A stretch of 35,296 bases of DNA, from assembly GCA_017399305.1 (NCBI GenBank), contig JAFQDK010000022.1, positions 1 to 35,296 of the forward strand, written 5' to 3'. The notes under the pieces are model-generated. The model had not been told where the DNA came from. It worked only from the letters and a program-made list of their open reading frames with translations, and ran no database searches. Each line of letters opens with the position of its first letter. The stretch's first letter is position 1. The position numbers were made by a program, and so were the translations under genes. Below, piece by piece: positions 721 through 24,930 of this stretch. This DNA is from Clostridia bacterium (GTDB lineage: Bacteria; Bacillota; Clostridia; Oscillospirales; CAG-272).

Positions 721-739
721 ATAAAGAAGGAGAAACAAA

Positions 740-2713
740 ATGGCGTACAATCCTTATACAGCGGTTAATGCTATATACAATTTAAAAGGGCAATGGACCG
801 CAGCCGACAAAGCCGGCGACACAGCAAAAAAGAACGAAGTTGCGAAAGCCGGACAAAAGTATTATGAAGAGTTGCGTGCTAACGGCTACGGTGATGTAGC
901 AAATGACCTTTCTAAATCCAACTACAACGATTCAAAGAAGATACACGACTTTTATGCAAAGACAGGCAGAACTGCGACAAGACCGTATTTCTATTCGCTC
1001 GGTAAAGCTTATGGAATGTCTGAATCTGATGTAGACAAGCTTCTTGGCTATGATAACACCACAGGAGAGATTACATTTGGCGGAAAGAACATAGGAAAGC
1101 CTGATGCGGTGGTTGACGGTACTTCATATTGGAGCGATACATCTACTATGGACAGCGCATTCAGTGACTATGTACAGCGAAGCGGCACTACACGAAGTCC
1201 TTCTGCAATGGTTAGTCAGGAAAATGAAAATCTGTTTAAAAGGTACGGACAGGAGCTTGACGACCTCAAAAATACCAATCCCTTCACAACCGAGGAAGCA
1301 AAAGCGATTCTTGCCAAGTACGACCTCGCAGGTCTGCAAGGTCGTGACAATGCAGTAGCGAGCGGAAGCGCGACAAACGGCGGTAACATTGACAGTTTTT
1401 CGGCGGCAAATGCGCTTCGCCAGCAAGCATCACTTGTTTCTCAGGGACAAGAAGCGGTGCTCTCGGCTCATCAGCAGAAGATTGATAATGCTATAAATAT
1501 CTTAGAGGGTATTGGTGTACATATTGACCGAGTTTACAATCAGGATGAGACCTCGAAAAATAATAAGGTGGCTCGTGATGTTGAAATAAGCAAGGTTACA
1601 GGCGTTGTTCCTGAGAGTATGTCTTATGAAAGCAATCCTTATCTTAACAGTGATGGAACTGTTAAGGATGTTTATTTGTCCAGTGAATTTGACGCTAAAG
1701 GTGGATTCAAAACCATTATCGACAAAGCGAAAGAGCAGCTTAAAACTGTTACAGATCCCGTGGAAAGAGCTAATCTTGAAGCTACTATCAATGCAGCTAC
1801 GCAGGCGCGTGGAATAAAAGCTACAAGTAGCCCTGCTTATGATAAATGGGCAGATACCATTACAGCATATGCTCCCGAGGCAACTGCAGACTATAAACTT
1901 GCCAATAAAGAACTTGATACAGACTTACAAAAGAATGCCAATAACAACAGTACTACCAAGTATGTATCTGATAATGAATCTAATACTACCAAGTATGTAT
2001 CTGATAATGAACTTGCAGCTACCAAGGATACTAACGATAGTAACGAGACTATCGCTGCGGGCAATAATGCAACAACTGTTGAAGTTGCGAACATCAACTC
2101 GGAAACTGCAAAATACGGTGTAGATGCTGATGAACGAATTGCATATGACACCAATGCAACCAATTTGGAAATTGCTCAGGGCGATAATGCAACAGATATT
2201 GAGATTGCAGGCATGAACAAAACGTCTAAAACTACAAATACTACAGGAACAAGGACTACTACAGGAACAAGGACTACTGGTCCTACCGGTGAAACTAAAC
2301 CTACCTTATCAGCGGCTCAAGCGAGGGATGCTATAAAAGCAGGTGAAATAAATGAAACCACAATAGCTGCATATAACTACCATTATGGTGGAAATTATAC
2401 CGTTGATAATCCACCGTCAATAGCGCCTAAAAACGAACCACCTGAAATAGAACCGGAAGAGTCGGAAATGACAACTGATCCTACTAACGATGATAGTACT
2501 TCATCAACGGCAGCAATGAGCCACACAATTGTTGATTTTGCGAAAAATTTGATTTCATCAGGGATTTCTAATGTGAACGAAATTGCCAAGTATTTAGCAG
2601 ATTTGAAAAGAGCAGGAGCAACAGATGAGGAAATGCTGGTATACATACAAGAATTAATAGATGCCGGAATACCGGAAGAATGGCTTGCCGGAATAAAAAA
2701 ACAATATTCATGA
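740..2713 (+). CDS. 657-aa probable phage virion protein with repetitive linker
   Basis: Strong RBS AAGGAG at 726-731. The N-terminal ~230 residues are a folded-looking region rich in Y, K and D (NPYTAVNAIYNLKGQW; KTGRTATRPYFYSLGKAYGM; GTSYWSDTS). A helical section follows, then a low-complexity stretch around residues 390-520 with an 11-residue tandem repeat (TTKYVSDNE), repeated NAT..EIA elements and a TGTRTT repeat. A P/E-rich linker leads to a C-terminal helical domain of about 60 residues (SGISNVNEIAKYLADLKRAG). There is no signal peptide. The pattern resembles minor structural or internal virion proteins of gut Firmicutes phages, but I recognise no named domain. It is 12 bp upstream of the giant gene, so the two are probably co-expressed late and may be co-packaged. 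Confidence 0.8.
   Translation: MAYNPYTAVNAIYNLKGQWTAADKAGDTAKKNEVAKAGQKYYEELRANGYGDVANDLSKSNYNDSKKIHDFYAKTGRTATRPYFYSLGKAYGMSESDVDKLLGYDNTTGEITFGGKNIGKPDAVVDGTSYWSDTSTMDSAFSDYVQRSGTTRSPSAMVSQENENLFKRYGQELDDLKNTNPFTTEEAKAILAKYDLAGLQGRDNAVASGSATNGGNIDSFSAANALRQQASLVSQGQEAVLSAHQQKIDNAINILEGIGVHIDRVYNQDETSKNNKVARDVEISKVTGVVPESMSYESNPYLNSDGTVKDVYLSSEFDAKGGFKTIIDKAKEQLKTVTDPVERANLEATINAATQARGIKATSSPAYDKWADTITAYAPEATADYKLANKELDTDLQKNANNNSTTKYVSDNESNTTKYVSDNELAATKDTNDSNETIAAGNNATTVEVANINSETAKYGVDADERIAYDTNATNLEIAQGDNATDIEIAGMNKTSKTTNTTGTRTTTGTRTTGPTGETKPTLSAAQARDAIKAGEINETTIAAYNYHYGGNYTVDNPPSIAPKNEPPEIEPEESEMTTDPTNDDSTSSTAAMSHTIVDFAKNLISSGISNVNEIAKYLADLKRAGATDEEMLVYIQELIDAGIPEEWLAGIKKQYS
1951..2011 (+). 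repeat. 33-bp-period tandem direct repeat inside the 657-aa gene
   Basis: A 28-base unit beginning TACTACCAAGTATGTATCTG is present at 1951-1978 and again, identical, at 1984-2011, a period of 33 bases or 11 codons. It encodes the doubled TTKYVSDNE element. Perfect identity at the DNA level suggests a recent slippage or recombination duplication. A second short repeat of period 18 (ACAGGAACAAGGACTACT) lies near 2240-2278. Confidence 0.9.
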
Positions 2714-2725
2714 TGGGGTATTGAT

Positions 2726-5700
2726 ATGTCTAAAATAAGTTCAATAGTTGAAAATCTAAGAAAAAAGAATTTACCAGAGACGATAAATAAAACAACATCA
2801 AGCAATACTGCTACTACGAAAAACAGTTATCCGAGCAGTTCTGTAAAACAAACCGTAGATTATTTGCGTGATAAAAACTTAAACACAGATACTAACGATA
2901 TAGTACTTGTGACTGACACCTCAAAGCCGGATGCGAAACCTGTTGAAATGACGCGTGGCGAGTACGAAGATTTGGTTGCGGAAGAAAAGCGGAAGTTTGA
3001 TTCAGAACGCAAAAAAGCCGCTGAGGAGTTTGCAAGACTACAGAAGCTTGCCGTGCAGGAAAACCGCCTGCACGGCGAAGAGCTTTTGGAAAAAAGGCAA
3101 CAAGAGGCAGAAGAAAGAATAGAAGCTAACAAAGAAAACGGTATTACATCTACAGATAACCCATTAATAGGTGCTGCGCAGGTTGCCATTTTCAACGGCG
3201 ATTTCGATTCTGCCAAAGCGGTGATTGCCAGCGGCATTGGTCTGTATTATACTTCGGATGAGGCTGACAAGATTTATCAGGAGCTTGCGTCAAATCCTGA
3301 AAACACACAAGCGGACCGCATAAGTGGTCTTAAAAAAGCATTCGCCAATGCTGAAGCTGAAATCCCGGTTTTTCAGTCGAAATATGAAGAGATTGTTGCT
3401 AACCATGCTACAATGGAAGATGAGACAGGATATGATAAATCAGCTGCCGAAAAGAGGGCGTTGTCTGCTGTTGAGTCAAAGAAAAAGCAAGCCGAACGCT
3501 ATCGCAATATGTATGACAGAGCATACAACGATCACTATATAAAACCGTATGTGGAAAAAGCAAAGGAAGAGCGTGATGCAAAGTATGCTCTCCCTATAAG
3601 TGAGCTTGAGACGCGTATAAAAGAAACTACTGAAAAGCAATCGGCATTAGAAAAGGCTGAAGCCGAAGCGTTGAAAAACTGGCAAGCTGCCGTTAACACA
3701 CATATGGTGGCTGATTTTAGCGCTTACGGAGACGCTGCTACAGATGTAATGTCAGATACTGCGAAGGCTGCAGATGCGACAGATGCCGCTCGTGAAGCCT
3801 ATGAGGCGGCAAAAAAAGCTAACCAAGATAATAACGCCGAAATCTTTTATTCATCTGGTTTGCTGTCTTTTGCGTCTTTAAGCGAATCTGACCGCACAGA
3901 AATGTTGAGATATATTCGCAATGGCGGAAACAAGGATGCATATAACCGAATCAAAGGCAGTATGTCAGCTGATGACTTTGAGCGCATGGTCGAGACATTG
4001 AAAGCGTGTGAAAACACCGTAAATGGCGTTCAAACTGATCTTGAAAACGCAAAGTTTGCAAAAGAGCATCCTGTAACAGGAAGCATTGCAAGTATATTCA
4101 CAAGTCTTGTCGGCGGAGTTACTGCTGTGGCGGGAACTGTAGCTCACGGTATTGATAATATAGGCGAAAACGAATACTATGTAAAACCTATTGACACAAA
4201 TTCATGGGCATATGCGCCGACAAAATTTACAACAACGGTGCGCGGAACGGTAGCGAATGATATTGAAGAAAGTGTTGGCGGCACAGGTGGCAAAGTCGCA
4301 TCTTTCCTTTATCAAACCGGTATGAGTGCTGCCGATTCTTTAACAGCTTCATTTGCCGGAGACTGGGGCGGTGCACTGCTGCTTGGTAGCTCAGCGGCTT
4401 CAAGTGCTTTTCTTGATGCTAAGGAACGCGGTGTCAGTGATTCGCAAGCAATATGGACAGGTCTAACAGCAGGTGTGTTTGAGACATTATTTGAACGTGT
4501 TTCTATTGGCAATCTCAATGCATTAAAAGAAACTCCTGTTGGCACTATAAAGGACATTTTCAAAAATTTAGGTAAGTCAACTTTTGTTAATACAACCGAA
4601 GAAGGATTGACCGAAGCGGCAAATATGGTATCAGATTATCTTATCAACGGTGATCTGTCCAAATACAGCACTATGTATAATGAGTTGCTTTCTGATATGC
4701 CTGAAAGCCAAGCTAAGGATAAGGTATTTTGGACTATGTTAGCCGACATAGGCATTGCTTCCGCAAGCGGTGCTTTTATGGGCTTGGGTTTGTCGGGACC
4801 TATTGGTGGCATAAACTATGTAACTAATCGTAACGCCAATACCGAAGTGGGTTCGTTATATCTTAATGAAAACGACACATTAAATGTTGATGCGGTGAAT
4901 ACTCTCATCAGTGACGGTCTTGTAAGCGAAAATGATATGCTGCGTTCTTATGCAATGCAACTGCAGAAGATGCAAGAAAAGGGTTCACAGATTGACGTTA
5001 AGCAGCTTGGCGCATTGCAACGCGGACTTGCGGCGGAGCAACTTGCAGATGTAAAGAAAGCTGAAAAGACAGCAAAGAAAGCAGACAAAAATGACGCAAA
5101 GAATGCCGCACAAGGGAACACAGTACAGCAAACGCAACCACAGAGTGCGCCGATAAACGTAATGTCCAATGAAGCAGTAGCGGAAGTATTAGGCGTTGAT
5201 AAGAGTAAACAGACAAGCAATTCAGCCGATAACGCTATTGAACATAGTTCAAGTGTCGACAATAATGCTTCAACAAACACAGATGCACAGCAAGAGGTAT
5301 CAACAAACAATACTACTACGGAAAAGTCATTGGAGAAAAGCGGTTTTGTGTTTACCGATGAACTTGATGAATTACAAAACACTGAAATGCCAACTGTTGC
5401 AGTGGGAGATGCATTTGTAGACAGCAAGACCGGTAACACTATCCGCGTGGTGAGCAGAGATGCTGATAATACCACGATTGAGATAGATACAGGCAAAACG
5501 GTTGAGACGAAGATATATACAAACGCACAGGCTGATACTTTGGCAGTGAGTGAACAATATGAGCCTGTAAAGGTGTCTGCGAAGTTCAATGCAGCGGAAA
5601 CAGCGACAGATACAAGTAGCAATGCGATAGAATCTTCTAAGCCATCTGTTGCAATAGGGGAAGTATATACAGATAGCAAAACAGGCAACACAATTCGTGT

Positions 5701-8700
5701 TGTTAGTCGTGATGACAGTCACACTGTAGTTGAAGTGAGCAACGGTACATCCACATGGACAAATACGTTTCCTAACGGTTTTGCGGATACTTTAAAACAG
5801 CCGAGATATACTCAGCTGACACAGGCTACAGACGCTGATATCATACCGGAAGTAAAAACCAATACAGACAAAATCAAAACTGTGAGAGCTAAAAAGAGCG
5901 ATTGGGCATCTGATGATGTTAGTTGGTGGGCACCAAACAGTAAAACTGTAATTGCTTATAGCACCGTTGCAACAAGTGATTTAATTGAAACAATAGCCGA
6001 AAGTAACCCTAAAATGACTATTGCGGAAGTGTATAACTCCATAAGATTTGATGCAGAAGCTAAAAAGGTTTTGCAGGCTTATATAAATTGTGGATTTGGC
6101 AATGATATTGCAAGTCAGCATTTTGTTCGTAATAAAAATGCTATTGCATCTGTTGCAAATGAAAGCGATGTGGAGTATAATGAAGATACTACACAGACTG
6201 AAAATAACGAGGTGAATGAAAGTGGACTTGCTCGAGAACATGACTTGGGGCGAGAAGAATCTGTACAAGCAGATGAGAAAGGACGGATATACGGACGAGG
6301 AAATCAAGAAGGAAATTCTGGGAATCAGGGCGATTCCGAAGGAACTTCGAGAGAAATGCGTCAAAGCGATGGCGAAAAGCATGATAATAGTGCATCACAA
6401 CGAAGAATAGTACGCGGGGTATTTCACGGAAGCAAATTTAAGTTTTCTCATTTTGCAAAGAGCTATGTAGATTTAGCATTGCATTTTGGTACTGAAAAGC
6501 ATGCCAAGGCACGATTGGCTGACGGCGAAGGTAACATAGTAAAATATGATCTTGTTTTAAACAATCCCCTTGAGACAGAGGATATTTTCGGTGAAAGAAC
6601 GCCGGAACAATATTTTGATGCACTCTTGAAACAGTCTAAACTGACTAATTCAGAGAAAAATATGCTTTCAAACGGTTTTAACGATTATCTGGAAACAGAT
6701 ATAAAGGCAGAAGCTACAATTTCACTGACCGAAAAAGTCACTAACGGTGGTTTGCATATCAAGGTCGAGACAGAGAAAGATGGCGTTTATATATCTCTTG
6801 AGATATATGACGATGCCGGAACCGCAAATGAAATTCCATTAACTGAATTCATTGGTAAGAATGAATTAATGGATATGCTTGGTTTCGACGAGACGGCCAA
6901 ACTGCTTAGTGGAAAAAACATATCAAGTGAAGCAGCTGAATTTTTGAATGCTGAGGTCTTTTCTCGAGCTATTGCTTTTGAACAGAATTATCTCAAACTG
7001 CGTAAAATCGAAGATATATTAAAATCGCTTGGTTATGACGGTTTTAAATATGAAAATCAGAATGAGGGCGCAGGTACATCTTTTGCAGTCTTTGATGATA
7101 GTCAGATAATCAGAATTGATGGCGACTTATCCAAGCCGAACGAAAACGCATCAATAGAACATGATACTGTCCAAGGTGAAGTAAGTCTTACAAACAAATG
7201 TGAACTGATAGAAACAAAGCACACGCAGACTGGCAAACCACTTTGGGTAGTCAGTGTTAAGGAACGGCTGGCTAAAGATGAATATAGCCGTTTGCTTGAC
7301 ATCGTAAAAAAGCACGGAGGATATTTTTCAAGTGCCGCAAAGTCGCTTGACGGCAATAAGCTTTCCGGCTTTATTTTCAAAGAGCAGCCAAGCGGCGATA
7401 CTATAAGCGCAATAAATGAGTTCTTCGGAGAACCAGAAAGTGTTAACAACGAGAGCGAAAGCAGCGAGACTTCACATTTGCCTGCACTCAACAACAATTA
7501 CACTTTTGTAAAGACAAAGAATACAAATACTGGCGACGATACTTGGCTGATTAAAGTTAAGGATAGAAGTCAAGCGTATAAACTCGGAGAGTTGAAAGAG
7601 TTTATAAAGGATTATGACGGACGGTATGCTCCTGCTTTGAATAGCTTAATATTGAATAAGGAACCGGGCGCGGATGTTATAAATGCTCTTAATAACCTTT
7701 TGTCCGAGGATGAGCCTGAAAATGTTAGGTCTGCAGAAACCGAAACTACAACTACAAAGGAAGGTAACGACAATGTTCACGATGGATTATTGGATAGACC
7801 AAGCACAGACGATGATGCGGGACGAGAACCCGAGCCTGTACAGGAAGTTAAAGAAGAACGGAACGCTGGAGACGAGAATAGAAAGTCTAGCGAAGATGTC
7901 GCTCGGTCAGGTGGAGAACTATTACAGACTACTGAAACAGAGTCATCTGCCAGCGGACAACTCGACAGCGGAGATAACGACAACAGAGTTCGAGAATCAG
8001 ACGACAGCGAGGGACATGGCGCAGAAGGAGCTTCTGTCGATGATAATGTCGATGTAGCCGAAGGCGGCAGTAAATCTAAAGATTTTGTTATTACAAAGGC
8101 TATTGCAGAGGATATAGACACTTCTGCACCGAGCATGAATGATAACATAAAAGCTATAGAAACGCTACATACTATTGAAAGTAGTGGCAAGGCTCCAACA
8201 AAAGCGCAGCAAGGATTGCTTGCAAAGTTTAAAGGTTGGGGCGGTCTCGCAGGTTCGTTTTACGGCGCAAACAGAAGTAAGCTCTCTGAGCTGATGAGTG
8301 AAGATGAGCTTAAAGCCGCACAAGGTACTGTAAACGATGCGTATTTTACCCCGACAAGCATTATTGACAGTATTTACAAAGCACTTAGCCACCTTGGGTT
8401 TGAAGGTGGAAATATATTAGAGCCGTCAATGGGCGTAGGTAACTTCTTTGGAAGAATGCCTAAATCCGTAAAAGACAGCTCTTTTTTGTTTGGTGTGGAG
8501 ATTGACACTATTTCCGGCAGAATTGCAAGGCAGCTATATCCCACAGCTAATATTGAGATAGCCCCATTCCAAGATGTTGCGTACAAGGACGGTGCATTTG
8601 ACCTTATAGTGGGTAATGTACCTTTCGGCGAAGTAAAATACAAGTATAAGGGCAAAAAATACTTAATTCACGATTATTTCTTTGTCAAAGCAATGGACAA

Positions 8701-11700
8701 GTTAAGTGACGGCGGTATTCTTGCTTTTCTTACTACTAAGGGTACGCTTGACAAGCTTGATAGTGTTGCACGCACAGAACTCGGCAAGCATGGCAAGCTG
8801 ATTGCTGCATACCGTCTGCCTTCTGATGTATTTTCGAGAAGCGCAGGGGCTAATGTTGTAACCGACCTTATCATTATGCAGAAGGCTGCCGACAAGGGCG
8901 GGGAAAGCTTTATAAACCTCGGAAATGTTTCTGTAGGTGCAAATGAGTTTTCTATTAATGAATACTTTGTAAATCACCCTGAAAATATTATTGGCGAGCT
9001 TGTTTCCAAAAGAGATTGGAGAAGCGGAAAAGAAGCGCTTGATGTTAAGTCAACGGGAAATGTTGCGGAGCAGCTTTTAAAGGCGATTAAGAAATTGCCA
9101 AGGAACATGCTAAGCGGCGCACAGACAGTGGGAACGGTTGATGTTACCGAAAGCAGCACAGCTATGCAGACATTTGCCGTCACGGATAGCGGTGATGTTG
9201 AATATGTCGATGTTGCCACGGGTGAGGTGAAGCAACTTAAAGGGAAGCAGGCGACAGTTGCTAAAGAATATATCAAACTGAAAAATGTATATGAGGATTT
9301 GATTAACGCAACACTCAGCGAAAATGAAACAAGTGTAGTTGAAGGTAAGCGCAAAGACCTGAACACTGTATATGACGGATTTGTAAAAAAGAACGGTACA
9401 CTGGGGAAAAACAAAAAAGTCTTGTCGGCTGACAATGACTTTTATAAAATATCCGGTCTTGAGGTATATGACACCAAAGCGAAAAAAATCATAAAATCCG
9501 AAATGTTTACAAAAGACACTCTTGGCAAGAGGACACCTAAAAAGGCGGACAACGCACTTGATGCTTTGAGTATTTCTATCGGCGAAAGCGGCGGTGTAAA
9601 TCTCAACCGTATAGCGGAGCTTACAAGCTTGTCTGAAAGTGAGGTTATAAAGCAGCTTGACGGAAGAATTGTATATACTCCTGAGGGTGTATATGAACTG
9701 AGCGAAGTGTATTTGTCAGGTAATGTCAGGGAGAAATATGAAGCGGTAAAAGGCAAAAAAGGATTCGAGAAGAATGAAGAAATGCTGAAAGCTGTTATAC
9801 CTACCGATATACCCGCAAAGAATATTACACCGCAATTTGGTGCGCCGTGGATAAAGTCTGATTACGTGGCGGAGTTTCTTAAAGAAACACTGCGTCTTTA
9901 CCACAAGCCTACAGTAAACTATGACCCGACAACAGGTACATGGTCTATATCAGGTAGCACATGGGGAGATAATACTCTTTTAACAAGCAAGTACGGTACA
10001 AAATATATTGATGCCATTTCGCTTGCGGAAAAGGCACTTAATATGCGCCAAATTGTTATAAGGGACAAGGACAAGAGAGTTCTTGTCGGCGAAACGAGAG
10101 CTGCACAGCAAAAGGCAGAGGATATAAAATCCGCTTTCGAGGAATGGTGCTTTAAGGATAGTGACCGCAGAAAGGATTTAGTTACTACATTTAATGAGAA
10201 ATTCAATTCCAACAGGAATATGGACTTTTCGGAGCTTGCGAAATATCTTGCCTTTGACGGTCTCACCGATACATTTAAGCTTAGGGACTATCAAAAGCGA
10301 GCCGTAGCGAGAGCGATTTTTAACGGCAATACATTGCTTGCACATGGTGTTGGCACCGGCAAGACCGCAGAAATGATTGCGGTTGCAATGGAACTCAAGC
10401 GAATGGGTATGGCAAAAAAGAATATGATGGTGGTGCCCGGGCATAAAGTGGCGGACTTCCGTAATGATATTCTTAAAATGTATCCTTCTGCAAAAGTTGC
10501 TATGCTTGAAAAAGGTGCAAATGCTACTCAGAGACAGAAGTTTTATGCACTTGTAGCGGCTAATGATTTTGACATTGTTATAATTCCACACTCGTCATTT
10601 GGAATGCTTGATGTTTCTCTCGATACAAAAAAAGCATTTATTAACAATCAAATTGCAGAGCTTGAAGAAGTGCTGACGGCTGCACAAGAGGAAAAGGGAA
10701 AGATAGACGGCAGATTTATAAGACAGCTTGAAAATCAGAAAGACCGTCTTGAAGAAAAACTGAAATTTGTCACCGAAACCGCAAAAGACAGTGGAAATAT
10801 CTTTGAGGAGTTGGGCGTGGATAGTCTGTTTGTAGACGAAGCGCACAACTTTAAAAACCTTCCTTTTTACAGCAAACTCAGCCGTGTAGCGGGAGTGTCA
10901 ATAAATCAGCCTAACAACAAGACAAGAGCAAGTCGTGCCGAAAATATGTTTATGATTACCGACTATCTTAACCGTAGTGGCGGCAGAATAACATTCGGAA
11001 CGGCAACGCCTATTACCAACTCTATGTCTGAAATTTACAATATGATGAGGTTTCTCCGTCCTGACATTTTAGCTGATGCAGGACTGCAATCCTTTGATGC
11101 GTGGGCGAGCATGTTCGGCTCTATTGTAAATCAGGCAGAGGTTGACCCGTCAGGGCGAAACATGAGAATGAAAGAGAGATTTTCCAAGTTCAAGAATGTT
11201 TCGCAGATGATTGAACAATTTCGCAGAATGGCGGATATTCTAAAGACCGGAGACGTAATACAGGAACTCCCAAAAGCGGAGCGAATAGATGTAATCAACG
11301 AGCCAAATGATATTCAGGAAGAATTTCTCGACATCATTGACAGTATGATTGATGATATACGCGCAAACGGTCAAAATGCCGACCACAACATGCTTGAAGT
11401 TACCACGGCGGGACAAATGGCAGCGGTTGACCTGCGTTTTGTTGCATCGTATTTTGACGGCAAATATTCGGAAGATGATTTAAATCTTCCGGGCAACAGA
11501 ACTACACAGGTGGCTCAGAGAGTATACGATGAATATGCAAAGAGCACTGCAAGCAAAGGAACGCAGTTTGTATTCTGTGACGTTGGCGTAAGTGATGATG
11601 CAAGTAAGAAATACAATTTCTATGTATACGGCGACCTTATAAATAAACTTGTGGCGCACGGTATCCCGAGAAAAGAAATTGCTATTGCACAGGAGTTTGA

Positions 11701-14700
11701 GGATAAAGCAGACCTCAGCGCAAAGGTAAACACCGGTGAAATAAGAGTGCTTATCGGTTCTACTGCTGTTATGGGAGAGGGCATGAATGCGCAAAACAAA
11801 GCGGTTGCTCTTCATCACATGACCGTACCGGCTCGTCCTTCGGATATTGAGCAACGAGAGGGAAGAATTATTCGCTACGGTAACGAAAATAAGAATGTAC
11901 GCATATATCGATATATTCAAGAAAAGTCCTATGACAGTTATCAGTGGCAGATGCAGGAGAGAAAAGCAAGTTTCATTAATCAGGCATTGTCCGGAGGTAC
12001 GGTTGAGGAACTCGAAGAAATGAGCGATTTCCAACTTTCGGCAAGAGAAGCAAAAGCGATTGCTTCGGGCAATCCATTGCTGCTTGAAAAGATTGAGCTT
12101 GAGGATATATTAAGCAATCTTAAATCTATCCGCAATAAATTCAACACAGATAAACTTGACATGCAGGATAGATTGGCAAGGCTGCCAAGTCAAATTGCAC
12201 AAAGGGAGAGAATTATTGCTGACACCTCAGCAGACGCTAAGACTGTAGCAACTAATGCGCCTGCGGACTTTGAAATAACTATCGGTAAGACAAAGTACAC
12301 CGAGAGAACAAAAGCGGCTGATGCTCTTAAAAAGATACTTGCAAATGCACCTCGCAACGGTACACGTATAAAGATTGGTTCGTATAGCGGACTTGACATC
12401 TATTACACATCATCTTTTGACAAGGGGACGCATTATATACTTAAAGGCAGCGGCGAATATTCGGTTCTCGCCGGTGAGAGTGCATCGGGCAATATTACCC
12501 GCATTGCAAACTTGGCTGAAAAAATTGGTGCTACTCTCGAAACCGACAAGGCACGAGTTGCAAACTATAAAGCTGAAATTGAAACCCTGAGGAATGAAGT
12601 CAATGCAGAATTCCCCAGAGCAAAAGAGCTTGAAGAGCTGCAAGCAAAGCTAAATGATATTGATACACAGCTTGGTATCAATGTGAGTACCGTTGACATG
12701 AGCGAGGTTATCGTTGATGACGGTACCGATGATAGCGAAAGTGCAAATTATTCGTTGGAAAGTGAGGGTATTGATTATGAACGAAACGCATTATCTGATG
12801 GAAGCGGCGGACGGAACTTTGGTTCGCGTTCCGGCAAGCAAATTGCAGGACTGGATAAAGCAACAGGAGCAAGCGAAAACCGCAGTCTTGAAGCAAAAGA
12901 CCGAAAAGCATATACAGAAAAGCTAACTGCCAATCAGCTTGAGCAGCGTACCGAACGCGACAGCAAAGGCAGGATGCATCGTTTCTTTGCAATAAAGCGC
13001 AGTGCGTGGAATGACAATATGCGTGATGTAGCTGATTATTATGAGCAGAGAGGGCTGAACGTTCAGTTTTTAAAGGGGAATATCCAATGTGCTTTTGTCG
13101 GCAGTGAATACGAGGCGAGGGCGATGCAAAAAGGTGATACACTTTATGTTCGTTACGACCACGAATACTATTATCCCGAACAGCTTGCAGAGCATGAGTA
13201 CATTGAACACAATTATTCATCCGATGATGTTCAAGCGGCACATACACAAATCCTTGACAATATGACCGATGCTGAGTACAATAAAGCTATAGAGATGCTC
13301 AAAAAACACTATAAAGGCGTTACAGACAATGTAGCCGACCTTGAAAGAGAACTTGTGTGTAACATTCTTTCAGGAATGTACCAAGGCGCTGCGGCGTATT
13401 CTGATACGGTAACGGAGTTTTGGGCAAAAGATAAGAGCATTTCACAAGGCTACAGTGCAGCAAGCTATTCTGATATGTCTGATGCAGGCGGCAATGCCGT
13501 TTTTGTTGATGCTATCGGGTATGGTAGTGAGAGTGTTGTCGAGGAAGGCGGTAACATTTATGAGCGACATGATACGAGACACTTCAGTGGAAGAGTTCAC
13601 GAAGATTTTGAAAGAGTGCAAAATCAAAGAGGAAGGAATACAAGCGATCTTGACAACATGTCCGATGGGAATACAACGTTGGAAGTTCAAGTGGGAAATA
13701 GAAAAGATGCAAGCGAAAGGCGAAGTAACCAAAGAAGATATTCTTCGCCTGTGGATGAACATGCATCACGTGTTTCTGACGAGATGTTGGAAAGCGGGGC
13801 CGGAGCCGACGAAAGAAGATATATTGAAGCTGTAGGAAATAAGGACGAGAAAACAGCACGTGAATTATTAAATAAATATGCGGTTAAAAATGGTTATTCT
13901 CCTATTATACTTTATCACGGCACACATTCTGACGAAGTCTTCACCGAGTTTAAGGGCACCGGGGCAGCGTATTGGATAACGGATGATTTAGCTTACGCTA
14001 ATGAATATTCCTTCGGATATTGGGGGACTGATGTAAAGGCTGAACAGCTCTATACTGAAAAAGAAAGCGGAATTTATGAGTTGTATATCAAGCTGGGTAA
14101 CACGCTTGAATTGGGCGATATAAATCGTAAGCTAACAACTCCTGATCAAATATTTGAATTCGGTAAACAGATTGGTTTTTCTTCAAAAGAAATACTTGCC
14201 TGCTGGACCGCAGGTCGTGTTCATGAAAGCAAAGCTATATGGACAATGACAGCAACTCCTGAATTTGCAAACTTTGCTCGTAAATACGGCTATGATACGT
14301 TGTTGGCCACGGAACGTGACGGTGTAAGAACATTTGGAGTTCTTTATCCCGAAAATATTAAATCGGCAAAAACTGTTACTTACGACGACAAAGGCGTGGT
14401 AATTCCGCTAAATGAACGTTTTGATGATACCGAGACGGATATCCGCTACTCCCTTGACACATACGACAAAGATGCGGCTTCACTTACTTCAGAGCGCAAA
14501 AAGGAAATATTTGAACAATTTGATAGGGACAAATCAGGTCCCGAAAAAGTATCCATAAAGCAGATGTTCGGTGAACGTGCCGCTTGGGTTGCTCATAATA
14601 TGACAAGAGTATTCCCCGACATTCCCGAACGCGGCGAAAAGGGTACTTTTTTTGCTGAATTCCGCAAAATGATGATACAGTGGAAAGGGCTTCCTACCAC

Positions 14701-17599
14701 TGCTTCATTTATGGTTCAGGATAAGCTCAACAAAATGACCGAAGGTCTTACTCCGGCTGAGTTTAAAACCTTTGAAAAACTTGTTTATTTTCTTGATTTA
14801 CAAGAAGAGGCGCAGTTGCAAAAAGAACAAGGTAATGAAGAGATATTGTTACCTAATGCAATTACAACGCAGGAAGTAGACACAATTGTCAACGAGCTTG
14901 ACGCTGAAGCTACTGAAAAGGTAAAGCAGGCACTTGTTAAGCGTCAAAGTATTTGGGATGAGCTGAAGGAAGAGTATATTGCGCTGAATCAGTACATCGG
15001 TTTTGATACCGACAATAAATTCAGACGCAAAAACTATTATCATCACCAAGTCATAGAATATATGAACAAGGATAGCAAAGGTACTGGAAAGCGTGAAGTA
15101 GGAGTTAAAGCGAATCGCGGGTGGCTTAAAGAACGGCACGGTTCCACAAAGGCTATCAATACAGATTTTTTAATGGTTGAGTACAAGGCAATGTTGCAAA
15201 TGCAATATGACGTTTATATTGCGAATATGCTTGGAAAAATCAAGCGGCAATATGATATAAAGCCTCAACTTGAGAAAGAAGCTTTTCAGAGTAACAAGCA
15301 AGCAATCAAAGACCTTATACTATCCGAGAGTACTGATAAAGACGGTAAGCCTATCCTTAAAAACGGTAAGCCCGACAGCGAAACATATCGTCAAGAACAA
15401 TGGTATAATCAAAGGATAATGTTCGGATTTAACGGTTTGTTTGATTTGGCTGAGCGTGGCGAACTTCCAACCTTCGGTGGCGCATACAGAGGAGTTGTAC
15501 GTTCACTTAAGATTCATGACCTCAAGGTTGCCGGCTTGTACAAATATGTTGGAGCACTTGCGGCTACAGAACTTTCTGAAAATGCAACCGAAAATGAACA
15601 TCAAGCTGTCATAAGTGCTAGAACCGTTTTGAAGTACACTTCTCAAAAGAAAGCATGGATAAAGGGCATTCTTGGCGAGGATTACCAAACGTGGGAAACT
15701 CTTGCAAAAAACATGAAAGATACTCATGTTATTCATCAACCGAGACGTGGTAATTATTTCTATACTAAAACCACCATTGATGAAGATGCTTTTAATCGTG
15801 CTTTTGAAGAAATGATTTCTACACTTGCTGCGGGGGAAAAAGGATTTGCAAGCCTGAACGAGGTTAAAAATCTCTTTTTACAGTATTCAGATACGATTCG
15901 TCTTACCGGTGCTGCATATGAGCAGTGGGTATTGCCCAAGGAAATTGTTTCCACTATGGATAGCATTGCAAATCCTAAACAGGCAAGCGAAGGTGCAAAA
16001 GCGGCAAAAGCCGTGGTGTCTGCATGGAAAGGATGGGCTACAAGCGTAAATCCGTTGCGTACTGTTAAGTTCGGTTTAAGAAACATGGTCGGAGACCTTG
16101 ATGCGGTTATAGCGGGTAATCCGGGAATTGTTAAGTATTCTGGGCGTGCTGTTGGTGAGATATATCAAGCTATGCGGCATAAAAGTTATTCTGCCGAGTT
16201 CATGGAGTGGGTAGAACGCGGAGGATACACTTCAATGATCTTCGCCAATGAGATGGATGAAAAAACGCAGAATGAGTTGTTCGCACATCTTAAGGAAAAG
16301 AAAGGCACTAATATCTTTAAGGTTCTTACGAAACCTTTCAAGGGATATTATGATAGTGTAGAGGCGGTTCACAATTTCCGTGAAGCGATACTTCGTTATT
16401 CCGCATACCTTTATTACAAGGACCGTATTCAACACCGTAATGGTGACGTGAAGGATTATGTTGCTTCAAATAGGTATATTGTGAAAGGACTTTTGTCCGT
16501 TGAAGACAAGGCATATCAGCTTTCAAAAGATTTGCTTGGAGCTTATGATGAAGTTGGTATGATGGGACAGACTTTGCGTAGGTATTGGATTCCGTTTTAT
16601 TCTTTTACGGAAACCAACCTAAAGCGTTATTACAGGATGTTTGAAAACATAATTGTATCTGATGCAAACATACCCAAGAAAGCCGGCAAATTACTTATGA
16701 AAGGCTTGATGGTCAATCTGATTGGTTTGCTTATGATTGCTTGGAACAAGTTAGTTATGGATGAAGAGGACGAAAAACTTCCGCCTTCAGTTCGTGATAT
16801 TCCGCACGTTACGCTTGGCCAAATTGGAGATAATGTTTATGCATTCCGACAACTGGGTAGCTTTTCTGAATTGCTTGAGTGGGTAGGGCTTGACGATTAT
16901 GAGTGGACGAGCGAAGACTTGACCGCTCCTCTTGATAAGGCTTGGGGAATGATAACACCGTTTATTAAACTCCCTGTAGAGATCGCAAGCGGATTGAATT
17001 TTTACCCCTCGCTTACTGAACCACGTGCAATCAGAGATAAGGTGCAGCACTTCTTTAATTCTCTTGGTGTAGATGATATTTATAACGAGTTTACCGGCAA
17101 GCCTACTCGTGGAGTGAGTGAGATCCTTAAGGGGGCTTTTGTTTATAGTTATGATTATCAAGAAAGCGCATATTATGAGATACTTGACATCAAACGTAAT
17201 TATCAAGGTGCAAATGACAATACGATTTATGGTGCTAACAAGAAGTCAAATGCTCTGTATTATATGAAAGCAGCTATCAGGTATAAAGACAAAGAAGCTG
17301 CATTGAAGTATTTAGACGAGTATTTTGAAAACGGTGGTACAGGAAAGGGAATTAAACAATCGTTTGCCACTCTTAATCCTATGTATGGCTATACTGGCAA
17401 GGATACTATAGCTAAAGGTGAAGAATTCATTGCTTCTCTCTCGGTTGAGGAGAAAGAGAAATTAAGAATTGCACAAATGTATTATGAAAATGAATTAATG
17501 TTGCCTGAAAATGTCTCGGGTTTACTTGGGAAAAAAGGTATAACCAATGAAGAGGCAAGAAATCTTTTGATTAATTACATTAATTCTCAATGCAAGTGA
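2726..17599 (+). CDS. giant polyvalent phage protein (4,957 aa): ART-like, N6-adenine methylase, SF2 helicase, zincin-like, ART-like, LPD38-like
   Basis: One uninterrupted frame. Approximate residues: coiled coils 79-139 and 249-326; glycine/alanine-rich hydrophobic stretches 452-476, 525-563 and 676-700; a duplicated beta-rich module 890-940 and 975-1022; ART-like domain 1230-1463 (VFHGSK near the start, GYDGFKY near the end); another duplicated module 1490-1660; N6-adenine methylase from about 1865 with motif I EPSMGVGNF (E1899) and motif IV GNVPFGE (N1964); SF2/SNF2 helicase 2520-3110 with Walker A GVGTGKT (K2546), DEAH 2704-2707 and motif VI QREGR 3043-3047, a DarB/COG4646-like pairing; zincin-like region 3440-3560; second ART-like domain 3720-3912 (LYHGT, then VIPLNERF and DIRYSLD); and a tail to 4957 resembling LPD38, with a hydrophobic helix near 4656-4679. 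Family knowledge suggests such proteins are packaged and injected to protect or establish phage DNA. The start has a modest RBS (GGGG at 2715-2718). Four linkers carry +1-frame ORFs. Confidence 0.92.
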   Translation: MSKISSIVENLRKKNLPETINKTTSSNTATTKNSYPSSSVKQTVDYLRDKNLNTDTNDIVLVTDTSKPDAKPVEMTRGEYEDLVAEEKRKFDSERKKAAEEFARLQKLAVQENRLHGEELLEKRQQEAEERIEANKENGITSTDNPLIGAAQVAIFNGDFDSAKAVIASGIGLYYTSDEADKIYQELASNPENTQADRISGLKKAFANAEAEIPVFQSKYEEIVANHATMEDETGYDKSAAEKRALSAVESKKKQAERYRNMYDRAYNDHYIKPYVEKAKEERDAKYALPISELETRIKETTEKQSALEKAEAEALKNWQAAVNTHMVADFSAYGDAATDVMSDTAKAADATDAAREAYEAAKKANQDNNAEIFYSSGLLSFASLSESDRTEMLRYIRNGGNKDAYNRIKGSMSADDFERMVETLKACENTVNGVQTDLENAKFAKEHPVTGSIASIFTSLVGGVTAVAGTVAHGIDNIGENEYYVKPIDTNSWAYAPTKFTTTVRGTVANDIEESVGGTGGKVASFLYQTGMSAADSLTASFAGDWGGALLLGSSAASSAFLDAKERGVSDSQAIWTGLTAGVFETLFERVSIGNLNALKETPVGTIKDIFKNLGKSTFVNTTEEGLTEAANMVSDYLINGDLSKYSTMYNELLSDMPESQAKDKVFWTMLADIGIASASGAFMGLGLSGPIGGINYVTNRNANTEVGSLYLNENDTLNVDAVNTLISDGLVSENDMLRSYAMQLQKMQEKGSQIDVKQLGALQRGLAAEQLADVKKAEKTAKKADKNDAKNAAQGNTVQQTQPQSAPINVMSNEAVAEVLGVDKSKQTSNSADNAIEHSSSVDNNASTNTDAQQEVSTNNTTTEKSLEKSGFVFTDELDELQNTEMPTVAVGDAFVDSKTGNTIRVVSRDADNTTIEIDTGKTVETKIYTNAQADTLAVSEQYEPVKVSAKFNAAETATDTSSNAIESSKPSVAIGEVYTDSKTGNTIRVVSRDDSHTVVEVSNGTSTWTNTFPNGFADTLKQPRYTQLTQATDADIIPEVKTNTDKIKTVRAKKSDWASDDVSWWAPNSKTVIAYSTVATSDLIETIAESNPKMTIAEVYNSIRFDAEAKKVLQAYINCGFGNDIASQHFVRNKNAIASVANESDVEYNEDTTQTENNEVNESGLAREHDLGREESVQADEKGRIYGRGNQEGNSGNQGDSEGTSREMRQSDGEKHDNSASQRRIVRGVFHGSKFKFSHFAKSYVDLALHFGTEKHAKARLADGEGNIVKYDLVLNNPLETEDIFGERTPEQYFDALLKQSKLTNSEKNMLSNGFNDYLETDIKAEATISLTEKVTNGGLHIKVETEKDGVYISLEIYDDAGTANEIPLTEFIGKNELMDMLGFDETAKLLSGKNISSEAAEFLNAEVFSRAIAFEQNYLKLRKIEDILKSLGYDGFKYENQNEGAGTSFAVFDDSQIIRIDGDLSKPNENASIEHDTVQGEVSLTNKCELIETKHTQTGKPLWVVSVKERLAKDEYSRLLDIVKKHGGYFSSAAKSLDGNKLSGFIFKEQPSGDTISAINEFFGEPESVNNESESSETSHLPALNNNYTFVKTKNTNTGDDTWLIKVKDRSQAYKLGELKEFIKDYDGRYAPALNSLILNKEPGADVINALNNLLSEDEPENVRSAETETTTTKEGNDNVHDGLLDRPSTDDDAGREPEPVQEVKEERNAGDENRKSSEDVARSGGELLQTTETESSASGQLDSGDNDNRVRESDDSEGHGAEGASVDDNVDVAEGGSKSKDFVITKAIAEDIDTSAPSMNDNIKAIETLHTIESSGKAPTKAQQGLLAKFKGWGGLAGSFYGANRSKLSELMSEDELKAAQGTVNDAYFTPTSIIDSIYKALSHLGFEGGNILEPSMGVGNFFGRMPKSVKDSSFLFGVEIDTISGRIARQLYPTANIEIAPFQDVAYKDGAFDLIVGNVPFGEVKYKYKGKKYLIHDYFFVKAMDKLSDGGILAFLTTKGTLDKLDSVARTELGKHGKLIAAYRLPSDVFSRSAGANVVTDLIIMQKAADKGGESFINLGNVSVGANEFSINEYFVNHPENIIGELVSKRDWRSGKEALDVKSTGNVAEQLLKAIKKLPRNMLSGAQTVGTVDVTESSTAMQTFAVTDSGDVEYVDVATGEVKQLKGKQATVAKEYIKLKNVYEDLINATLSENETSVVEGKRKDLNTVYDGFVKKNGTLGKNKKVLSADNDFYKISGLEVYDTKAKKIIKSEMFTKDTLGKRTPKKADNALDALSISIGESGGVNLNRIAELTSLSESEVIKQLDGRIVYTPEGVYELSEVYLSGNVREKYEAVKGKKGFEKNEEMLKAVIPTDIPAKNITPQFGAPWIKSDYVAEFLKETLRLYHKPTVNYDPTTGTWSISGSTWGDNTLLTSKYGTKYIDAISLAEKALNMRQIVIRDKDKRVLVGETRAAQQKAEDIKSAFEEWCFKDSDRRKDLVTTFNEKFNSNRNMDFSELAKYLAFDGLTDTFKLRDYQKRAVARAIFNGNTLLAHGVGTGKTAEMIAVAMELKRMGMAKKNMMVVPGHKVADFRNDILKMYPSAKVAMLEKGANATQRQKFYALVAANDFDIVIIPHSSFGMLDVSLDTKKAFINNQIAELEEVLTAAQEEKGKIDGRFIRQLENQKDRLEEKLKFVTETAKDSGNIFEELGVDSLFVDEAHNFKNLPFYSKLSRVAGVSINQPNNKTRASRAENMFMITDYLNRSGGRITFGTATPITNSMSEIYNMMRFLRPDILADAGLQSFDAWASMFGSIVNQAEVDPSGRNMRMKERFSKFKNVSQMIEQFRRMADILKTGDVIQELPKAERIDVINEPNDIQEEFLDIIDSMIDDIRANGQNADHNMLEVTTAGQMAAVDLRFVASYFDGKYSEDDLNLPGNRTTQVAQRVYDEYAKSTASKGTQFVFCDVGVSDDASKKYNFYVYGDLINKLVAHGIPRKEIAIAQEFEDKADLSAKVNTGEIRVLIGSTAVMGEGMNAQNKAVALHHMTVPARPSDIEQREGRIIRYGNENKNVRIYRYIQEKSYDSYQWQMQERKASFINQALSGGTVEELEEMSDFQLSAREAKAIASGNPLLLEKIELEDILSNLKSIRNKFNTDKLDMQDRLARLPSQIAQRERIIADTSADAKTVATNAPADFEITIGKTKYTERTKAADALKKILANAPRNGTRIKIGSYSGLDIYYTSSFDKGTHYILKGSGEYSVLAGESASGNITRIANLAEKIGATLETDKARVANYKAEIETLRNEVNAEFPRAKELEELQAKLNDIDTQLGINVSTVDMSEVIVDDGTDDSESANYSLESEGIDYERNALSDGSGGRNFGSRSGKQIAGLDKATGASENRSLEAKDRKAYTEKLTANQLEQRTERDSKGRMHRFFAIKRSAWNDNMRDVADYYEQRGLNVQFLKGNIQCAFVGSEYEARAMQKGDTLYVRYDHEYYYPEQLAEHEYIEHNYSSDDVQAAHTQILDNMTDAEYNKAIEMLKKHYKGVTDNVADLERELVCNILSGMYQGAAAYSDTVTEFWAKDKSISQGYSAASYSDMSDAGGNAVFVDAIGYGSESVVEEGGNIYERHDTRHFSGRVHEDFERVQNQRGRNTSDLDNMSDGNTTLEVQVGNRKDASERRSNQRRYSSPVDEHASRVSDEMLESGAGADERRYIEAVGNKDEKTARELLNKYAVKNGYSPIILYHGTHSDEVFTEFKGTGAAYWITDDLAYANEYSFGYWGTDVKAEQLYTEKESGIYELYIKLGNTLELGDINRKLTTPDQIFEFGKQIGFSSKEILACWTAGRVHESKAIWTMTATPEFANFARKYGYDTLLATERDGVRTFGVLYPENIKSAKTVTYDDKGVVIPLNERFDDTETDIRYSLDTYDKDAASLTSERKKEIFEQFDRDKSGPEKVSIKQMFGERAAWVAHNMTRVFPDIPERGEKGTFFAEFRKMMIQWKGLPTTASFMVQDKLNKMTEGLTPAEFKTFEKLVYFLDLQEEAQLQKEQGNEEILLPNAITTQEVDTIVNELDAEATEKVKQALVKRQSIWDELKEEYIALNQYIGFDTDNKFRRKNYYHHQVIEYMNKDSKGTGKREVGVKANRGWLKERHGSTKAINTDFLMVEYKAMLQMQYDVYIANMLGKIKRQYDIKPQLEKEAFQSNKQAIKDLILSESTDKDGKPILKNGKPDSETYRQEQWYNQRIMFGFNGLFDLAERGELPTFGGAYRGVVRSLKIHDLKVAGLYKYVGALAATELSENATENEHQAVISARTVLKYTSQKKAWIKGILGEDYQTWETLAKNMKDTHVIHQPRRGNYFYTKTTIDEDAFNRAFEEMISTLAAGEKGFASLNEVKNLFLQYSDTIRLTGAAYEQWVLPKEIVSTMDSIANPKQASEGAKAAKAVVSAWKGWATSVNPLRTVKFGLRNMVGDLDAVIAGNPGIVKYSGRAVGEIYQAMRHKSYSAEFMEWVERGGYTSMIFANEMDEKTQNELFAHLKEKKGTNIFKVLTKPFKGYYDSVEAVHNFREAILRYSAYLYYKDRIQHRNGDVKDYVASNRYIVKGLLSVEDKAYQLSKDLLGAYDEVGMMGQTLRRYWIPFYSFTETNLKRYYRMFENIIVSDANIPKKAGKLLMKGLMVNLIGLLMIAWNKLVMDEEDEKLPPSVRDIPHVTLGQIGDNVYAFRQLGSFSELLEWVGLDDYEWTSEDLTAPLDKAWGMITPFIKLPVEIASGLNFYPSLTEPRAIRDKVQHFFNSLGVDDIYNEFTGKPTRGVSEILKGAFVYSYDYQESAYYEILDIKRNYQGANDNTIYGANKKSNALYYMKAAIRYKDKEAALKYLDEYFENGGTGKGIKQSFATLNPMYGYTGKDTIAKGEEFIASLSVEEKEKLRIAQMYYENELMLPENVSGLLGKKGITNEEARNLLINYINSQCK
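5395..5800 (+). repeat. protein-level tandem module in the giant gene (residues ~890-1022)
   Basis: Two copies of a beta-rich module of about 50 residues, at about 5395-5545 and 5648-5795. They share the core DSKTGNTIRVVSRD, preceded by VAVGDAF or VAIGEVY and ending near ADTL. The DNA has diverged at synonymous positions, so the duplication is old and held by selection on the protein. Function is unknown; a small beta-barrel or SH3-like fold is only a guess. Confidence 0.8.
6222..6410 (+). CDS. nested +1-frame ORF A (62 aa) inside the giant gene
   Basis: Read in frame +1 relative to the giant gene from GTG 6222. GAGGTGA at 6209-6215 is placed as a Shine-Dalgarno; the ATG at 6216 sits too close to it. 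The ORF ends at TAG 6408-6410. The product begins MDLLENMTWGEKNLYKQMRK and continues with DGYTDEEIKKEILGIRAIP: amphipathic helices with a normal mix of hydrophobic and charged residues. Over the same bases the giant frame reads as a G/R/E/N/S-rich linker with almost no hydrophobic residues (giant residues 1166-1229), directly before the first ART-like domain. I do not recognise a family. It may be a still-translated gene within a gene, or a relic of a small gene absorbed by fusion. Confidence 0.55.
   Translation: MDLLENMTWGEKNLYKQMRKDGYTDEEIKKEILGIRAIPKELREKCVKAMAKSMIIVHHNEE
7190..7705 (+). repeat. second protein-level duplicated module in the giant gene (residues ~1490-1660)
   Basis: Two related modules of about 70-78 residues, at about 7190-7425 and 7492-7705. 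Copy 1 has ETKHTQTGKPLWVVSVKERL and copy 2 has KTKNTNTGDDTWLIKVKDRS. Each is followed by a G-G/G-R-Y-rich segment and a helix ending with INEFFGE or LNNLLSE. Copy 2 lacks the GFIF segment present in copy 1. Modules of this look are common in front of methylase-helicase proteins of phages; I do not know their function. Confidence 0.75.
7773..8057 (+). CDS. nested +1-frame ORF B (94 aa) inside the giant gene
   Basis: Starts at ATG 7773 with an excellent Shine-Dalgarno, AAGGAAGGT at 7757-7765, seven bases upstream, and ends at TAG 8055-8057. The product opens MFTMDYWIDQAQTMMRDENP and continues with SLYRKLKKNGTLETRIESLA and LGQVENYYRLLKQ. This is clearly helical and protein-like, with aromatic and aliphatic residues at helical spacing. 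The giant frame over the same bases (residues 1683-1778) is an E/D/S/G/R linker between the duplicated modules and the adenine methylase. It resembles the small helical hypothetical proteins often found as separate genes beside phage methylase-helicase genes; that resemblance is my impression, not a search result. Of the four nested ORFs this has the best translation signals. Confidence 0.65.
   Translation: MFTMDYWIDQAQTMMRDENPSLYRKLKKNGTLETRIESLAKMSLGQVENYYRLLKQSHLPADNSTAEITTTEFENQTTARDMAQKELLSMIMSM
12777..12926 (+). CDS. nested +1-frame ORF C (49 aa) inside the giant gene
   Basis: Starts at ATG 12777 with GAGGG at 12764-12768, eight bases upstream, and ends with a stop at 12924-12926. The product begins MNETHYLMEAADGTLVRVPA followed by SKLQDWIKQQEQAK. 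A short beta hairpin ('Y-L-M-E-A-A-D-G-T-L-V-R-V-P') followed by an 'L-x-x-W' helix is a layout I associate with small stand-alone phage or plasmid proteins. The giant frame here (residues 3351-3401) reads as a G/S/N/R-rich linker between the end of the helicase module and the zincin-like module. An upstream ATG at 12714 extends the frame, but that extension does not look like coding sequence and lacks the RBS. Confidence 0.6.
   Translation: MNETHYLMEAADGTLVRVPASKLQDWIKQQEQAKTAVLKQKTEKHIQKS
13560..13835 (+). CDS. nested +1-frame ORF D (91 aa) inside the giant gene
   Basis: Starts at ATG 13560, preceded by GAGGAAGGCGGT at 13541-13552, and ends at TAG 13833-13835. The product includes MSDMIRDTSVEEFTKILKEC, KIKEEGIQAILTTCPMGIQR and two TKEDIL.L helices, one central and one at the C-terminus, all typical of a small helical protein. 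The giant frame over the same bases (residues 3612-3704) is an R/S/N/D/E-rich, hydrophobe-poor linker between the zincin-like domain and the second ART-like domain. It is in the same +1 frame as the other three nested ORFs. No family recognised. Confidence 0.6.
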   Translation: MSDMIRDTSVEEFTKILKECKIKEEGIQAILTTCPMGIQRWKFKWEIEKMQAKGEVTKEDILRLWMNMHHVFLTRCWKAGPEPTKEDILKL

Positions 17600-22071: not shown

Positions 22072-22082
22072 ATAATTCTCCT

Positions 22083-22112
22083 AAAAGAGGAAAGCCTGCG
22101 CTTTCCTCTTTT
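22083..22112 (-). terminator. intercistronic hairpin between the two GH43 genes
   Basis: AAAAGAGGAAAGC, loop CTGC, GCTTTCCTCTTTT. On the - strand this follows the stop of the upstream paralogue by five bases and sits just before the RBS AGGAGA of the downstream gene. A full terminator or partial read-through element inside a 46-bp gap would set a lower level for the second gene. I see no promoter in the gap. Confidence 0.8.
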
Positions 22113-22117
22113 TTTTG

Positions 22118-24895: not shown

Positions 24896-24930
24896 ATTAC
24901 TCTCCTGTTTTGTATAAAAATTACAAGTAA

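Follow-up and report, generated by a model that had tools for sequence, protein, structure and literature searches.

The giant gene and the small reading frames nested in it

Contig JAFQDK010000022.1 of a Clostridia bacterium (assembly GCA_017399305.1), analysed here as a single stretch of 35,296 nucleotides ('the window'), carries a very long open reading frame (ORF), hereafter 'the giant', together with four small ORFs, A to D, which the initial annotation had singled out as genes within a gene and which do indeed all lie in the +1 frame of the giant (Table 1). The giant joins several unrelated enzymatic modules in one chain (DarB-like, SNF2 and ART-PolyVal), and by this criterion it is a polyvalent protein: phrog_10089 (DarB-like antirestriction) of the PHROG database matches amino acids (aa) 1654–3437 with an E-value of 0, SNF2-rel_dom matches with E = 2.5e-10, and the ART-PolyVal family PF18760 is encountered at two places. 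The label 'zincin-like' for the module following C is our own and derives from HELYH and HELWH motifs in L033 and L034 (L-numbers are labels of loci fetched for comparison), where the window has HEYIEH; the window module matches a profile of the same module built from 13 other loci carrying C, the window being left out, with E = 2.2e-23.

Table 1. Positions in the window of the giant frame, its modules and the ORFs nested in it (SD, Shine-Dalgarno)
Feature	Positions	Strand	Basis
Giant ORF, 4957 codons, frame 0; DarB-like methylase-helicase polyvalent protein	2726..17599	+	ORF listing and profile matches
SD-like GAGGTG of nested A	6209..6214	+	duplex -10.2
Likely nested gene A, 62 aa, GTG start, +1 frame	6222..6410	+	codon bias and SD
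ART-PolyVal-like stretch directly 3' of A, frame 0	6419..6709	+	PF18760, E = 2.4e-6; 28.8 bits, under the cut-off of 31.2; no single stretch passed alone
SD AAAGGAAGGT of nested B	7756..7765	+	duplex -9.4
Likely nested gene B, 94 aa, ATG start, +1 frame, 5' of the methylase-helicase stretch	7773..8057	+	codon bias and SD
Methylase-helicase stretch, frame 0, used as search query	8066..12679	+	SNF2 and PHROG matches
SD GAGGGT of nested C	12764..12769	+	duplex -8.6
Nested gene C (almost certain), 49 aa, ATG start, +1 frame, member of a conserved nested family	12777..12926	+	homologues
Zincin-like module directly 3' of C, frame 0	12929..13495	+	no Pfam match (0 families)
SD-like GAGGAAGGCGGT of nested D	13541..13552	+	duplex -9.2
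Likely nested gene D, 91 aa, ATG start, +1 frame	13560..13835	+	codon bias and SD
ART-PolyVal module directly 3' of D, frame 0	13898..14371	+	PF18760, E = 1.2e-7; 33.0 bits, cut-off 31.2

The initial annotation had ascribed to the four ORFs (i) Shine-Dalgarno (SD) sequences, (ii) a distinct composition and (iii) a location between modules, all of which we recover. The SD-supported start codons are given in Table 1; the longest mechanical starts lie further 5', at 6216 (A), 7683 (B), 12714 (C) and 13455 (D), and for A the ATG at 6216 represents an alternative start with a weak SD (-1.8). Over the nests, the giant frame is 15.5% hydrophobic (304 residues), versus 30.6% elsewhere, and the nested products reach 27–38%. 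A and D precede ART-PolyVal stretches, B precedes the methylase-helicase stretch, and C precedes the zincin-like module. Ahead of nested B, at 7190–7765, a short domain appears by eye to be present in two similar copies in the giant frame.

We suggest that this architecture reflects true dual coding, with small genes that start internally and a giant frame that crosses them as a polar linker, and we assign to this reading, as judged from sequence, a probability of about 85%. Ribosomes would start at the nested SD and start codon within the giant mRNA and release a small protein; for those making the giant, these bases would encode, in frame 0, a flexible polar linker.

One rival is that the nested ORFs represent compositional shadows, that is, long +1 ORFs devoid of function that arise in hydrophobe-poor linkers short of +1-stop codons. 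Stops in +1 require frame-0 codons ending in TA or TG (Leu, Val, Met and ATA-Ile), which are scarcer in the linkers (6–9% in nest linkers versus 10.6% overall), so that linkers tend to be open in +1. Hence, the coincidence of polar linker and nested frame on which the initial annotation had relied is real, but the two are mechanically linked and the argument from composition is weak. When the giant protein is kept fixed and its synonymous codons are redrawn (4000 times), the +1 frame stays open by chance in 38% (A, from 6222), 9% (B), 33% (C) and 7% (D) of the redraws. Comparison with other loci nevertheless supports dual coding.

ORF C belongs to a family nested alike in other giants

With the module 3' of C as query, 196 relative genomes yielded the window and one other locus (22% identity), and tblastn with the C product pointed to the same other locus (60% identity over 40 aa, E = 2e-10), where the match is a +1 ORF with a GGAG SD sequence nested in a 3121-aa ORF. 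Scanning IMG/VR, GTDB contigs and order-level genomes with the growing alignment raised the number to 16 distinct loci, the window included and two duplicate records removed, in each of which C lies in +1, is spanned by a long frame and is located directly 5' of the same module. The profile of this module was built from 14 of the 16 loci, and in leave-one-out scans all 14 modules are still matched. The family is thus found nested in 15 loci besides the window, belonging to other viruses and mobile elements; the C nest of L046 comes from a Pseudoflavonifractor sp. An85 record.

Other occurrences of C deviate from this pattern. In L047, C is nested in a frame of 336 codons; in L111/L144 it lies over a 185-codon remnant, which we did not count as a giant nest; and in L110/L143 the giant frame is broken at C. 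In L107/L117, C is not nested but found in-frame inside a 524-aa protein, the N-terminus of which we take to resemble a restriction nuclease; this protein with its C-like domain (7161–8735 in L117) also contains a hydrophobic stretch. Weak profile matches in L112, L113, L037 and L039–L042 were left uncounted. By eye, the N-terminal extensions of nested C in L118, L119, L109, L114 and L047 share a short GL.LP.L-like motif before the core.

The searches of the nested products against phage databases, called for by the initial annotation, had a divided outcome: C is absent from the phage records and present, nested, elsewhere, and A, B and D gave no confirmed homologue. Neither single-sequence scans with C (phages, IMG/VR) nor a C homologue used as query (phages) found a match, the module 3' of C as a single sequence found none in GTDB contigs or IMG/VR, and the scanned C members exhibit no significant Pfam, PHROG or PDB match.

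TnpV genes are nested in homologous giants

A total of 59 (later 61) non-redundant long frames, a set containing a few antisense open frames such as L034-3859, were scanned for +1 and +2 ORFs with ATG and SD, and their products were clustered. Two families were accepted, C and TnpV; the other clusters were judged by eye to be echoes of conserved frame-0 sequence. The assignment of TnpV rests on nested products of L053, L071 and L051, which match PF14198 with E-values of 4e-36 to 4e-43 (123.7–146.5 bits, cut-off 27). In the eight methylase-helicase giants inspected, the nest follows a conserved N-terminal region of ~270 aa, and beyond it the giant continues in an unchanged frame.

Among 40 loci fetched around helicase matches, without reference to TnpV, 18 have a strong match to this N-terminal domain, and in all 18 TnpV is nested in +1 and spanned; L121 (Monoglobus pectinilyticus TSDC17.2-1.2) and L122, which were added through TnpV itself, bring the strong loci to 20. 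The domain profile was made from TnpV-bearing loci, and 17 of 17 are still matched at E <= 2e-50 when left out. Matches ending before profile position 150 were dropped (23 strand-loci had any match). L055 has a weak second domain match (E = 3e-14) without TnpV, and L057/L012 contain a second TnpV, split over two frames, away from the nest. The presence of a nested TnpV family in homologous giants implies that dual coding is not unique to the window.

TnpV is also annotated as a free gene in phage phiNJ3, in plasmid pSGG1 and in a Vescimonas replicon (40–42% identity), in two of these three records beside tet genes. By eye the pattern of B is similar to that of a divergent TnpV; it does not match PF14198, and an hhalign comparison was not significant (P = 0.084 over 20 columns). 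The corresponding comparison for D was likewise not significant.

Selection acts on the nested frame of C and TnpV while the giant frame remains open

Whether similarity in the nested frame merely follows from that of the giant was assessed with a pair null, in which both giant proteins are held fixed and synonymous codons redrawn (100 nulls per pair). For C (14 loci, 91 pairs), the observed score exceeds the null mean in 91 of 91 pairs (median z-score 6.6, minimum 2.9) and is reached in a single pair, by 1 of 100 nulls; the window C compared with the 13 other loci has z-scores of 4.7–12.7. For TnpV (14 loci, 91 pairs), the median z-score is 13.5, the minimum 9.1, and the observed score is reached in 0 of 91 pairs. 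Conservation of the C homologues in the alternative frame hence exceeds what the giant protein imposes. Consistently, the nested alignment score of C exceeds the linker score in 90 of 91 pairs, and nested TnpV identity (46.8%) surpasses that of the linker (34.4%) in 90 of 91 pairs.

Codon positions bear, for the nested frame, on the synonymous-site constraint whose measurement the initial annotation had proposed. In DNA alignments made without regard to frame (18 of 136 TnpV and 4 of 91 C pairs passed the filters), differences at giant positions 1/2/3 amount to.29/.21/.50 outside and.48/.31/.22 inside the nest for TnpV, and to.29/.26/.45 outside and.43/.34/.22 inside for C. Since giant position 1 is nested position 3, differences inside the C and TnpV nests accumulate as they would in any normal gene read in that frame, which supports nested coding. 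The same pattern suggests that in these nests the giant frame is mainly kept free of stops.

Start signals point in the same direction. At 30 nested starts (13 C and 17 TnpV, window excluded), SD duplexes range from -8.1 to -12.1 with a median of -9.4; the 2437 other +1 ATGs in the same frames have a median of -2.7, and 1.85% of them are as strong as -9.4. C therefore appears to possess its own translation start with a ribosome-binding site, as predicted for the window (-8.6) and for the 13 homologues measured.

Taken together, compositional shadow leaves unexplained the conservation of C and TnpV across loci with giant proteins fixed, the switched substitution pattern and the SD strength, even though an open +1 frame arises by chance in 7–40% of redraws for the window ORFs and in 4–84% at the C and TnpV loci. 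We reject it for these two families and regard it as quite improbable overall; it may hold for A, B or D singly, for which homologues are not confirmed and, in the case of D, the SD is mostly forced (see below). C itself is, on the same comparative evidence, almost certainly a real nested gene.

Shifted-frame products are common in phages, so programmed frameshifting into the nested frame, which would yield an alternative C-terminus of the giant and no free small protein, also has to be considered. We find it scarcely credible: a strong SD precedes an in-frame start codon at 30 of 30 measured C and TnpV starts, and both families also occur as free or in-frame proteins.

A further rival holds that the giant is not one protein, with modules and small genes being separate and the open giant frame across the nests incidental. 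In its favour, substitutions inside the nests follow the nested frame, and in the gene table of NZ_OY725736.1 (L121) TnpV has an entry of its own and the SNF2 protein begins 1.9 kb after it. In that record, however, the frame is open over 2559 codons (8160–15836), and with the SNF2 entry beginning at locus position 11271 the N-terminal part has no listed gene; the table is known to be incomplete, and the lack of an entry need not mean the lack of a gene. More generally, all 20 loci with a strong N-domain match and all 16 C loci have the long frame open across the nest and unchanged on either side; two broken or remnant C loci exist besides (L143, L144). When it is the nested proteins that are fixed and redraws are scored for an open giant frame (reverse null; 5000 draws for the window), the giant frame is open in 0–24% of the draws per C locus and 0–1.6% per TnpV locus; in the window it is open in 0 of 5000 for each of A, B and D and in 1.6% for C. 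The giant frame is open although the nested proteins make this improbable at most loci. Together with its continuation in one frame on either side of the nest, this speaks for translation straight through the nest, and we consider the separate-gene explanation highly improbable.

Evidence for A, B and D

Dual coding as initially proposed for all four ORFs is strongly supported for C by homologues nested alike; for A, B and D codon bias and SD sequences make a moderate case, without a confirmed homologue. In the window null, codon-likeness z-scores of the nested frame from the SD-supported starts are 2.8 for A (2.9 from 6216), 3.3 for B, 3.0 for C and 2.2 for D, and from the longest starts 2.9, 2.6, 2.1 and 1.4, respectively. 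In the giant, 15 further +1 ORFs reach 40 codons or more, and their z-scores lie between -2.7 and 0.8; among them the ORF at 5196–5420, which to the initial annotation looked like an ordinary shadow, has -0.10. Synonymous choice in the host frame is hence biased towards a gene-like alternative frame at A, B and D, with only 1.4 for D from its longest start, and this bias is not explained by compositional shadow. An equal or stronger SD is found in 2.5% (A), 20% (B), 18% (C) and 76% (D) of the redraws, the last value implying that the protein sequence of the giant largely imposes the SD of D; SD, start and open frame occur jointly in 0.2%, 1.1%, 4.2% and 4.3%.

A joint cut (codon z-score >= 2.4 and SD score, with a 1 kcal bonus for ATG, <= -9.2), applied to 833 +1/+2 ORFs from the 61 long frames, retains 31 of 33 C/TnpV ORFs; of the 649 other +1 ORFs it retains four, and of the 151 +2 ORFs none. 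These four are A, B and D of the window (codon z-scores in this set 2.6, 3.1 and 2.5) and one ORF of L050, an artefact of N-masked sequence filled with a fixed codon. A separate candidate is seen at 4087–4281 in L045, +1 in the long frame 693–9536: its 64-aa product has a codon z-score of 4.8, an SD score of -8.3 and no significant Pfam match.

Several candidate relatives of A, B and D were examined and rejected. For A, L126 contains a match of 22 aa, and among the 146 genomes searched 7 others show weak matches; of those realigned, most lie in-frame in longer ORFs, and that in L129 lies in another frame of a hydrophobic 1037-codon ORF. Weak matches to D were obtained in 9 other genomes of a set of 255 and in 6 others of a set of 147, and to B in 6 others of 255; several contain internal stops. 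D also has three phage matches with E from 1 to 8. The best NCBIfam match, D to RNA polymerase subunit F (E = 2.7e-4, 20.8 bits versus a cut-off of 182), and the best Pfam (D, E = 0.0019) and PHROG (C, E = 0.0056) matches among A–D were treated as chance. A and D do not align with each other.

The following points weigh against dual coding, at least in its full extent. (i) No confirmed homologue was found of A (146 genomes and IMG/VR), B (255 genomes and IMG/VR) or D (255 and 147 genomes and IMG/VR), which may reflect the small number of relatives. (ii) The z-scores of A, B and D (2.2–3.3) are at the low end of those of 28 C/TnpV ORFs (median 6.0, minimum 2.6), z > 2 is seen in 43 of 654 other +1 ORFs, the joint cut was set after the scores were seen, and D's SD, as stated, is mostly dictated by the giant protein. 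(iii) Over the whole giant, the number of +1 ORFs with ATG, SD and 45 codons is only mildly unusual: 3 versus a null mean of 0.50 at a threshold of -8.5 (fraction of redraws reaching it.020), 2 versus 0.47 at -9 (.075) and 3 versus 1.03 at -7 (.060). (iv) C is rare: none of 50,697 phage records contains a match, matches occur in 7 of 295 genomes of the family (E <= 0.1, most of them weak) and in 9 of 394 of the order (E <= 0.01), and an unfused ancestor with a free C gene was not found. (v) Mean nested identity of C (36.8%) is close to that of the linker (34.4%) and higher in just 58 of 91 pairs, and one of the four close C pairs, L045/L046 (7/12/7), has no excess at position 1. (vi) Pairs and loci share ancestry, so the chi-square values of the codon-position test are not probabilities, and L068/L071 and L054/L122 have about a quarter of their 30-mers in common. 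On balance, codon bias and start signals still make it likely that A, B and D are each a real nested gene.

Relation to known systems and surroundings of the giant

Complete genes lying in another frame of a longer gene on the same strand, with a start site of their own, are known from phages (Rz1 in Rz, E in D of phiX174). The nests described here share these traits and differ in that several small genes sit at the module junctions of one giant and two unrelated families recur. In phage P1, iddB within ddrB (NC_005856) is likewise an annotated ORF inside a gene of an antirestriction cluster, but on the opposite strand. Polyvalent proteins as described by Iyer et al. 2017 (PMC5512222) resemble the giant in combining methylase-helicase and ART-PolyVal in one DarB-like chain; nested same-strand genes are not described in the available part of that paper, in which 'overlap', 'TnpV' and 'linker' occur 0 times. 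In the accessible portions of related papers, overlap, nested and TnpV occur 0 times (PMC11318856), 'overlapping gene' designates start variants of a terminase gene (PMC13299392), and TnpV is mentioned as a neighbour of tet(O) or among transferred families, in neither case as a nested gene (PMC11913394, for Roseburia, and PMC10782964). The three annotated examples of PF14198 examined are free genes, whereas TnpV of the giants lies in +1 inside a gene. Within the literature covered, from which bioRxiv and most subscription papers fall outside, nothing recognisable as nested genes in polyvalent proteins or as nested TnpV was encountered.

The giant seems to sit in an integrated element beside ordinary bacterial genes. 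Just upstream of it ends a 657-aa ORF (740–2713), partly polar and repeat-like, with no Pfam match and a best PHROG E-value of 0.0026. Downstream, 17849–18709 encodes an SDH/ClpP-type protease (PF01972, E = 3.3e-14; phrog_11747, E = 1.5e-54), which possibly processes the giant. From 19297 to 35157 follow ordinary bacterial genes, namely two GH43 (one with dockerin), NAD(P)HX dehydratase, ribosomal protein S2, GH2, a class II tRNA synthetase and DUF421.

Origin of the nests and implications

How might such an architecture have emerged? The free TnpV genes, the in-frame copy of C and the substitution pattern of the nested frame suggest that the giant probably arose by module fusion through pre-existing small genes, a process for which we use the term 'threading': modules would have been fused across a small gene, the shifted reading of which then supplied the linker. 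Alternatively, the small genes might have been born de novo in existing linkers, and A, B and D, which look like orphans in the searches made, would fit such overprinting. TnpV, however, is an annotated free gene in three records and C is found in-frame in another protein, so that neither family is confined to the nest, and substitutions inside the nests resemble those of an ordinary gene of the nested frame; we hence consider overprinting unlikely.

Our best guess is that the small proteins act as accessory factors (partner, inhibitor or chaperone), each made together with the module next to it, and that C could be the partner of the adjoining peptidase-like module. We also lean, with more reserve than for the nests themselves, towards the general proposal of 'fusion through a gene' as the way in which phages and conjugative elements build their giant polyvalent genes: resident small genes, out of frame, would stay functional with start sites of their own and act as linkers. 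Small accessory genes (TnpV, the C family and orphans such as A, B and D) would then lie hidden systematically in such linkers, where annotation omits them or splits the giant at them. Gene finders that allow no overlap can overlook or truncate nested genes, and the table of NZ_OY725736.1 exemplifies the annotation problem. Beyond adding a conserved small-protein family, C, to those known from Pfam and PHROG, where its scanned members are not significantly matched, the present findings point to dual coding as an architecture that recurs within one class of anti-defence proteins and offer a concrete mechanism for the origin of inter-module linkers.

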